Shown here one piece after another: positions 8,169-27,287 of a DNA stretch of 58,606 nt. Both the position numbers and the translations under genes were made by a program. Source of the stretch: a virus; IMG/VR virus record IMGVR_UViG_3300027844_000607, positions 1 to 58,606 of that record. One strand, 5' to 3'. The number at the start of each line of letters is the position of its first letter. The first letter of the stretch is position 1. A model generated the notes under the pieces. It did not search any database. It had not been told where the DNA came from and was given only the letters and a program-made list of their open reading frames with translations.

Positions 8169-9091
8169 TTAGTCGCACGTTTCTCATTGAAGGCGGCCAA
8201 GTCCGCTTTCCACGTATCCGTCCATGTTGGCACAGGTGAAAAGTGATCGATGAGCCACTCGAAATCTCGCGTACGTTGTTCCCACTTATTATTCATCCAG
8301 TAGTCAATACAGTAATGACGGCCGTCTTCTTTGTCGGCTTGATGCTCTCTATACTGTTGATTACTGAAACCATAGCCCTTCCCCTTCTTACCTTTGTGCC
8401 AATGAGCATACCACGTTTTCTTGTTGACAACAACGCGCCCACCACTGAACCACGTTTTATTTCCAATCTCTTGCGCTTCCTGCGTGAACATGCCATAACC
8501 ATCTTCTTCCATGTCTCCAATGACCGTATGCCAATGTGATGTCTTCATGAAATAGCAGGAACCCTGCCATGACATTGTATCATCAATAAGGATATCCTTT
8601 CTTTCATAGTGTCGTGATTTCCACTCCGACCCGTGTAACCCGTACTCTATATCGTGCGGCCGCTCAAACGGATTGGCAAGATACATATAGTCAATTGGTG
8701 GACGACCATCTTCAACGACGACCCATTCTTCGGGTTCCAACCGATAGCGGCGTGGAATGACAACCCAATTATCCTCGCAATCGGCTTTGAGCTTGGTGTC
8801 GTAGCCCTGATCGAGCAAACAGTGTTCGTCAATCTTCATCAGGTATTCGCCGGTTGCCAAGGAGACACCTGCATTGATGGCCGAGCGCATTCCATAGTGG
8901 CCGTGTGTTATTCCTTGATGGAGGTGGTGAACTTTGGGATGGTCTTTGGGGATAGTGTCTGGCCAGATACCGTCCAGTACAACTATGATCTCAATGTCGC
9001 CTTCAGCTTTGGCGAGTAGATCATCGATAGTTTTCTGGAGATACTGCGGACTGCGTGACGGGACAATAATGGACAATCGCGATGCTATCAT
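8165..9091 (-). CDS. GT2 family glycosyltransferase (308 aa)
   Basis: GT-A domain: LSIIVPSRSPQYLQKTIDDL at the N-terminus, IIVVLDGIWPD for nucleotide binding, and MKIDEHC as the DXD-like site near residue 95. WFSGGRVVVNKKTWYAHWHKGKK in two motifs near residue 220 closely parallels WLSGGRHVVNKKTWFAHM in the fused protein at 3844-5559, so the two GT2 domains are paralogues. First gene of the minus-strand glycosylation run, with a CTAAATA box and GAAGGAG ribosome site upstream. Confidence 0.8.
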   Translation of the reverse strand: MIASRLSIIVPSRSPQYLQKTIDDLLAKAEGDIEIIVVLDGIWPDTIPKDHPKVHHLHQGITHGHYGMRSAINAGVSLATGEYLMKIDEHCLLDQGYDTKLKADCEDNWVVIPRRYRLEPEEWVVVEDGRPPIDYMYLANPFERPHDIEYGLHGSEWKSRHYERKDILIDDTMSWQGSCYFMKTSHWHTVIGDMEEDGYGMFTQEAQEIGNKTWFSGGRVVVNKKTWYAHWHKGKKGKGYGFSNQQYREHQADKEDGRHYCIDYWMNNKWEQRTRDFEWLIDHFSPVPTWTDTWKADLAAFNEKRATK

Positions 9092-26664: not shown

Positions 26665-26700
26665 AAAAAGGTGCTGGTTTCTGTTGCCAGGAGAGCCAGC
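26665..26700 (-). terminator. Probable terminator of the tmRNA gene
   Basis: GCTGG (26696-26700) pairs with CCAGC (26673-26677) and is followed by ACC and five T. It lies just after the tmRNA coding piece and just before the gp33 ribosome site. The stem is short, so read-through into gp33 is possible. Confidence 0.5.
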
Positions 26701-26741
26701 GTCCCCGCTACACTATTCCTAGTCTAGCAATTTGCGACCAA

Positions 26742-26771
26742 CTAGGCCGCGAGTGCGAACTGGTTATCAGT
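26742..26771 (-). other. tmRNA tag reading frame (ends DNQFALAA-stop)
   Basis: In the coding piece, codons for Asp-Asn-Gln-Phe-Ala-Leu-Ala-Ala are followed by TAG. ALAA is the classic ClpXP/ClpAP degron end. The codon before Asp is ACT (Thr) and the resume codon cannot be fixed from sequence; Ala is more usual there. The stop sits in a hairpin, CCTAGT pairing with ACTAGG downstream. Confidence 0.85.
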
Positions 26772-26854
26772 TCTGTGTGTCTCTGTTTTACGACAGCGAC
26801 TTGTCGATAGCCTCCCCGCGTTCGCACAGTTCCCGTCGAATCTATTTCGCCCCC

Positions 26855-27013
26855 ATCAAAAAAAGATTAGATAAACTACGCCGCTGAGGAGAAATATATC
26901 CGCGCAAATGGACCATACCATATATGCTCTGAGCAGCCACTTGCTTACCTCTTGGGCTAGGGGGTTCTTCATTGTTAAGCCCCTGTAGTTCTTTTTTCAC
27001 GCTAATCTCCTTT
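26855..27013 (-). other. Intervening segment of the permuted tmRNA
   Basis: The 159 bases between the CCA of the acceptor piece and the GGGGGCG start of the coding piece should be excised from the precursor. It begins with an AAAGGAG ribosome-site sequence right after the CCA and is almost completely filled by a 38-codon reading frame (26856-26972). From memory, alphaproteobacterial intervening segments are shorter than this. Confidence 0.8.
26856..26972 (-). CDS. Small membrane protein encoded inside the tmRNA intervening segment (38 aa)
   Basis: ATG at 26972, preceded by CAGGGGCTTAACA, opens 38 codons that end with TGA one base before the first base of the tmRNA coding piece. The peptide starts MKNPLAQEVSKWLLRAY and continues as a single hydrophobic helix (VWSICADIFLLSGVVYLIFF), so it looks like a real inner-membrane miniprotein. 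An alternative GTG frame at 27000-26842 has a better ribosome site (AAAGGAG) but a non-protein-like sequence and runs into the tmRNA; it might act as a leader. No homologue known to me. Confidence 0.55.
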   Translation of the reverse strand: MKNPLAQEVSKWLLRAYMVWSICADIFLLSGVVYLIFF

Positions 27014-27082
27014 TGGTGGAGGCGGCCGGTACTGCCCCGGCGTCCGAAAACCGTTGTCCGCGCTTCAACGACTACAGAAGTA

Positions 27083-27111
27083 ATTATATCACACGCGACG
27101 ACAAATGTCGA
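27083..27111 (-). promoter_or_regulatory. Sigma70-like promoter TCGACA-17-TATAAT for tmRNA
   Basis: TCGACA (27106-27111), 17-base spacer and perfect TATAAT (27083-27088) with TGTGA before it, on the minus strand. The predicted start near 27076 gives an acceptor piece of about 63 nt. It allows host-polymerase expression of the tmRNA independent of neighbours. Confidence 0.75.
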
Positions 27112-27116
27112 GGCAC

Positions 27117-27287
27117 CTAGTGTCGGAATACCTCCTTATAAAGCGGCAAGTCTTTGGTACGTTGCTCGACAAGCTCTGCCAATGTGCCATGCGCGGCGTC
27201 CCGCTCAGAGAGAAGCGGAGACTCTACACCTTGCAGATCCGTTCGTTCGGCGTGCAGATGGGTGGTGTCGGGTTTCTCAGCTATCAA
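27117..27287 (-). CDS. Putative small protein or C-terminal extension after nuclease stop (56 aa)
   Basis: The reading frame continues open for 58 codons after the TAA stop of the nuclease gene, in the same frame. A TTG at 27287 could start a 56-residue hydrophilic protein containing HLHAERTDLQGVESPLLSER and ending DLPLYKEVFRH. No good ribosome site is seen. Either it uses TTG, or it is made by stop read-through, or it is a remnant of a longer nuclease. The composition looks coding. Confidence 0.4.
   Translation of the reverse strand: MIAEKPDTTHLHAERTDLQGVESPLLSERDAAHGTLAELVEQRTKDLPLYKEVFRH

Follow-up and report, generated by a model that had tools for sequence, protein, structure and literature searches.

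The question raised by this locus is what lies between the two halves of a permuted tmRNA gene in a T4-like marine phage. The window (the whole stretch of 58,606 nucleotides that was analysed) is a 58.6-kb viral contig, T4-like by gene content, with genes for a major head protein, a scaffold, gp46-like, gp41-like and gp32-like proteins and a helicase loader. The original prediction had placed a phage-encoded permuted tmRNA on its minus strand, with an empty spacer of 159 bases between the pieces, and had proposed Rfam covariance models as the means of checking it. When the models were run (Rfam cmscan), tmRNA_permuted (RF04321) matched 26742-27076 on the minus strand at 93 bits (gathering 47, E 1e-16) and alpha_tmRNA (RF01849) matched 26670-27115 on the minus strand at 81.5 bits (gathering 50, E 1.5e-20); the linear tmRNA model RF00023 gave no match in the window. 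The merged permuted model originates from PMC11915505. Linear forms were present in the unrelated loci L002 and L013, and ARAGORN did not detect the window's tmRNA. This confirms a circularly permuted tmRNA at 26670-27115 on the minus strand, with the acceptor piece before the coding piece. Its parts, and the gene behind it, are as follows.

27083..27111, minus strand: sigma-70-type promoter, TCGACA-17 nt-TATAAT with TG before the -10 box, at 11 of 12 consensus positions
27014..27076 (predicted 5' limit), minus strand: acceptor (3') piece, with T-arm, acceptor 3' strand and ACCA (RF04321, RF01849)
26670..26854, minus strand: coding (5') piece, GGGGGCG (from 26854) through the last pseudoknot (RF04321, RF01849)
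26742..26774, minus strand: tag reading frame RTDNQFALAA-TAG, from alignment with L003, L006, L010 and L162
26430..26654, minus strand: gp33-like late transcription coactivator (phrog_254, E 9e-13), directly 3' of the tmRNA

The predicted elements were found in place. The acceptor 3' strand CGCCTCC occupies 27024-27018 and the ACCA ends at 27014, with the coding piece opening 159 bases on, at 26854; the acceptor stem, GGGGGCG/CGCCTCC-ACCA, has 7 bp and includes G3.U70, and the T-arm GCCGG-GGCAGTA-CCGGC lies at 27041-27025. The TATAAT promoter that had been noted was borne out as well, and similar promoter boxes precede the sister tmRNAs. The expected DNQFALAA-TAG frame runs from 26774 to 26742 (AGA ACT GAT AAC CAG TTC GCA CTC GCG GCC TAG) and has the same position in the sisters. 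The resume codon is probably AGA; in the window's phage clade it appears to be AGA (Arg), and in related phage tmRNAs GCA (Ala). The same tmRNA occurs in six contigs of other samples (L004, L005, L007, L008, L011 and L015), and therefore does not stem from an assembly error; no DNA match to it was found among the phage records searched. The description of the tmRNA as lying among early genes was not quite accurate, since it is flanked by a phrog_298 exonuclease on one side and the gp33 late-transcription coactivator on the other.

A phage permuted tmRNA is itself of an already published kind; the unusual part is the gene nested in its spacer. The intervening sequence (IVS) is 10 nt long in six sister contigs whose tmRNAs are 89-90% identical to the window's, and in the window it holds the following features.

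26855..27013, minus strand: 159-nt IVS cassette, predicted absent from the mature tmRNA (sequence and Rfam bounds; 10 nt in the sisters)
26842..27000, minus strand: ORF1, putative leader, GTG start, 52 codons, behind AAGGAG and with its TAG stop inside the coding piece
26856..26972, minus strand: ORF2, ATG start, 38 aa, MKNPLAQEVSKWLLRAYMVWSICADIFLLSGVVYLIFF (pN/pS, homologues, hydropathy)
27002..27013, minus strand: 5' strand of the IVS-closing helix, AAAGGAGATTAG, containing the Shine-Dalgarno AAGGAG (27012-27007)
26859..26870, minus strand: 3' strand of the IVS-closing helix, CTAATCTTTTTT (pair conservation, end pairing)

ORF1 and ORF2 overlap in different frames, and the TGA stop of ORF2 falls one base ahead of the coding piece. 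By hydropathy, ORF2 is a predicted single-TM protein. It had no significant match in PHROGs or Pfam and no protein match among the phage records searched; ORF1 had no match in PHROGs. Long-spacer and ORF2 motif scans brought together at least 37 different spacers that encode ORF2 and have a length of exactly 159 nt. Coding selection was measured on 37 of these: pN/pS was 0.23 in the ORF2 frame versus 0.83 and 2.0 in the other two, and both the ATG and the TGA of ORF2 were present in 37 of 37. Given this in-frame ratio and the invariant start and stop, sequence comparison identifies ORF2 as a protein-coding gene under purifying selection. The original prediction is therefore right about the phage-borne permuted tmRNA, its two pieces and its tag frame, but not about an empty spacer.

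Could the reading frames nevertheless have arisen by chance in the long non-coding spacer of an ordinary phage permuted tmRNA? Chance ORFs are common at this place, because conserved stops at the tmRNA end (the TGA of TGAT and the TAG of GAAATAG) close two of the three frames by default, and most long bacterial spacers are without convincing ORFs. We nevertheless consider this explanation highly improbable. Purifying selection is confined to one frame, with start and stop unvaried; the 159-nt length is fixed in 37 distinct sequences; homologues of ORF2 stand free outside tmRNA genes; and other cargo families number ten or more, those tested having in-frame pN/pS of 0.07-0.49 (most from 2-6 sequences). 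For ORF2, chance was rejected on the coding test.

ORF1 behaves differently from ORF2. AAAGGAG opens the spacer in 36 of 37 sequences and the ORF1 start codon stands at one column in all 37, but pN/pS over its non-overlapping codons is 1.03; ORF1 therefore resembles a leader that is translated without its peptide sequence being important. ORF1 has the strong Shine-Dalgarno, and no minus-strand ORF in the spacer is longer; both facts might instead suggest that the 52-aa peptide is the actual product, with ORF2 as a by-product. This reading is almost certainly wrong: the peptide is unconstrained, and ORF1 has 18-23 codons in 35 of the 37 spacers, reaching 52 only in the window's species. There the usual stop has been lost, and ribosomes would enter the tmRNA by 13 bases. 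ORF1 (52 aa) was dropped as the nested gene, its peptide being unconserved.

Homologues of ORF2 occur both inside and outside tmRNA genes. The motif scan gave at least 65 copies within clear IVSs; of a further 48 matches listed, 15 were interpreted as lying in the IVS of a tmRNA whose ends vary and the other 33 as standing free, making at least 80 nested and at least 33 free-standing homologues by this reading. Many free-standing copies keep an overlapping leader. In L297 and L318, as assigned by eye, a free copy lies 5' of a gp33-like gene with no surrounding tmRNA seen, and in L318 an exonuclease-like gene (likewise assigned by eye) lies upstream of it. Among the matches listed, a gp33-like gene is located 3' of 76 of 85 ORF2-bearing tmRNAs. 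Free homologues were also seen near a cell-wall-hydrolase-like gene in L290, L294 and L370, a neighbourhood too weak to claim a role in lysis for ORF2.

The spacers of other marine phage tmRNAs hold at least ten unrelated small genes, plus a tRNA. By IVS length in nt, the cargo families include MDEVILW (108-118), MFKSIRVW (107-110), MFDRLTEFF (120), MDREIWIIY (122), MWIYKCDAG (145), MNWDWHW (149), MKHLKE (152; Pfam DUF6356) and MIYVRDEG (180), and, in longer spacers, MEMIWHILL (205), MTEKEKREAY (210) and MSEEKKNG (247). The proteins have 27-73 aa and are mainly membrane or small basic proteins. In L369, a 260-nt IVS starting at locus position 1841 carries a tandem of two cargo genes; L205 has the first of these as its only cargo. 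The tRNA, a complete tRNA-Arg (tct) gene in a 110-nt spacer, was met in a single viral case (L233), which is not the window. Counting among the matches listed, with near-duplicates included and many of the contigs being metagenomic fragments, long-spacer scans found at least 119 viral stretches with an IVS of 99-159 nt and at least 96 with one of 160-220 nt. Acceptor and coding ends lay 5-35 nt apart in at least 120 viral stretches, and short-spacer phage tmRNAs are therefore common too. When tmRNAs were chosen by acceptor sequence, irrespective of spacer length, 35 of 53 had a spacer of at least 99 nt (many near-duplicates, and some 127-nt spacers that are not cargo). Spacers of exactly 127 nt (L140, L141, L153 and others) were left out of the cargo counts because of their weak end pairing and an ORF apparently running through the whole tmRNA; throughout this group (L140, L141, L153, L158, L169, L173, L175 and L177), one same-strand frame seems to span the whole tmRNA-like sequence.

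In its tmRNA body, the window most resembles the empty-slot sisters (89-90% identity). Its cassette, in contrast, is closest, at 87% identity, to the cassettes of L291, L330, L353, L375 and L384, although the tmRNA bodies of these five share only 64-66% identity with that of the window. The cassette has therefore moved between tmRNAs. L137 and L155 share an identical tmRNA (275 nt), with a coding spacer of 122 nt in the one versus an empty spacer of 38 nt in the other, and L170 and L197, each 99.3% identical to L155, differ in cargo. In L334, the slot is empty (10 nt) and ORF2 lies immediately 5' of the tmRNA. These alignments show exchange of cassettes between phages, and the tmRNA halves likely serve as the recombination homology.

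Such exchange, together with sites that carry differing cargo and have near-identical empty counterparts, would also be expected if the nested genes were selfish mobile elements. They would then resemble the homing endonuclease genes of introns: the tmRNA would offer them a safe place to insert, and they would neither benefit the phage nor have any regulatory link. We regard this as unlikely. The cargo proteins are short (27-73 aa) and for the most part membrane or small basic proteins, and those scanned have no endonuclease domain; a homing endonuclease as cargo was rejected on the same ground (PHROGs for ORF1 and ORF2, Pfam for ORF2). Moreover, the cargo falls into many unrelated families, and ORF2 also stands free at the gp33 locus, as expected of a phage gene.

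The ends of the spacer pair with one another. Each pair of the closing helix is kept in 36-37 of the 37 spacers of 159 nt, and the helix adjoins the acceptor stem and extends it. In a set of 201 spacers, the mean pairing energy is -11.7 kcal/mol for a spacer's own ends versus -4.6 kcal/mol for swapped ends, and the ten end positions are each paired in 80-99%, with several pair types per position. In the window, the 5' strand contains the leader Shine-Dalgarno; the predicted unpaired fraction of that site falls from 0.37 before the helix is complete to 0.00-0.01 after.

Taken together, these data lead us to propose, as the probable explanation, that the spacer of this permuted tmRNA is a docking slot for a small protein gene, and that the RNA acts first as an mRNA and then as a tmRNA precursor. 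The order of translation, the processing and the functions of both products are what we infer here. One transcript from the sigma-70-type promoter would carry the acceptor piece, the cassette with ORF1 and ORF2, and the coding piece. While RNA polymerase was still in the cassette, ribosomes would load on the exposed leader Shine-Dalgarno, and translation of ORF1 would open a hairpin that encloses the start of ORF2. With synthesis of the helix 3' strand and of the acceptor strand, the Shine-Dalgarno would become hidden and the tRNA-like domain would fold; tRNA-processing nucleases would then excise the spacer and leave a two-piece tmRNA, so that the same RNA would be a small mRNA first and a tmRNA precursor later. 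Two observations count against this model: the run-on of ORF1 into the tmRNA is not needed by the proposed coupling, and the excised spacer is likewise predicted to fold with its Shine-Dalgarno hidden. The closing helix could also merely serve tmRNA processing, with burial of the Shine-Dalgarno as a side effect, a role supported by the closing stem that empty and bacterial spacers often have too.

It might also be argued that the halves have ceased to work as a tmRNA and serve as a UTR scaffold whose structure stabilises a small mRNA, since the cargo may be the dominant part of the locus and tmRNA function in any of these phages is a prediction. This is very unlikely, because the G3.U70 acceptor stem, the T-arm and an AA-ending tag frame are kept in sisters with and without cargo, and the window's Rfam scores are near those of the cargo-free sister tmRNAs. 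The docking-slot proposal can be widened to phage permuted tmRNAs at large: their spacer would be a general cargo slot, the nested genes would be expressed from the future tmRNA, the helix would make translation and maturation mutually exclusive, and cargo would be swapped through recombination in the tmRNA halves. This wider form is tentative, and we hold it to be possible but somewhat doubtful.

Phage genomes have been predicted to contain 53 two-piece tmRNAs, 50 of them marine or aquatic (PMC9004378), and PMC11915505 gives 79 phage tmRNA sequences. In phage Melnitz, a two-piece tmRNA lies 5' of the late-transcription coactivator (PMC9004378); the window is similar in that a T4-like marine phage bears a permuted tmRNA of alpha type, 5' of the gp33 coactivator. 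In the cultured Melnitz isolates the spacer is 142 nt long and bears an ORF, which in L497 (MZ577097.1, locus 482-623) is unannotated, is preceded by a Shine-Dalgarno and begins MFKWLSKTRLVVITRDYFRERNRKADAKIPKYLSG. Unlike ORF2, it belongs to another cargo family, related to cargo with a KYL(S)G motif; no mention of a spacer gene in Melnitz was found in PMC9004378.

With the bacterial permuted tmRNAs (RF04321, RF01849; PMC11915505), the window's gene shares its form, acceptor stem, T-arm and tag frame, and an IVS predicted to be removed. The available text of that survey mentions one nested tRNA gene and one repeat in spacers and no protein-coding gene, whereas the window's spacer holds one. 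When 85,000 bacterial and archaeal genomes were scanned for the 99-159 nt IVS pattern, 26 matches were obtained, mostly non-coding, and phage-type cargo was present in only two (L394 and L409, both marine MAG contigs). In most of 115 alphaproteobacterial genomes the tmRNA spans about 180-270 nt, and their spacers are therefore short.

A further parallel is offered by the intron genes of T4. In td, the Shine-Dalgarno of I-TevI is sequestered, and mutants lacking the hairpin splice poorly (PMC2988022); there as here, a small ORF with a helix-buried Shine-Dalgarno lies inside a structured RNA gene and is exchanged between phages. In the window, however, the ORF lies in the precursor of a tmRNA, for which tRNA-processing enzymes rather than self-splicing presumably do the cutting, and unlike I-TevI the cargo is no endonuclease and has no recognised internal promoter. 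No earlier report of protein genes nested in tmRNA spacers was found in the open-access literature; such genes have been overlooked because they are located within a feature annotated as RNA. If the proposal is true, small protein genes between the halves of a non-coding RNA gene are a new gene architecture in abundant ocean phages, one that offers phages a reason to retain permuted tmRNAs and makes the conflict between translation and folding on one RNA directly testable. Because Melnitz is cultured and carries a nested ORF, experiments are possible without an environmental sample.

Some minor features of the neighbourhood were also seen. A 56-codon ORF at 27117-27287 of the window resembles the C-terminal end of a sugar-epimerase-like gene that lies 5' of the tmRNA in L006 and L010, and is probably a gene remnant. 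In L003, an ammonium-transporter-like gene (upstream of position 8880) lies directly 5' of the phage tmRNA. A Glutamine riboswitch adjoins the tmRNA in L137 (1019-1072, minus strand) and in L497 (802-850, plus strand), as has been published for Melnitz.
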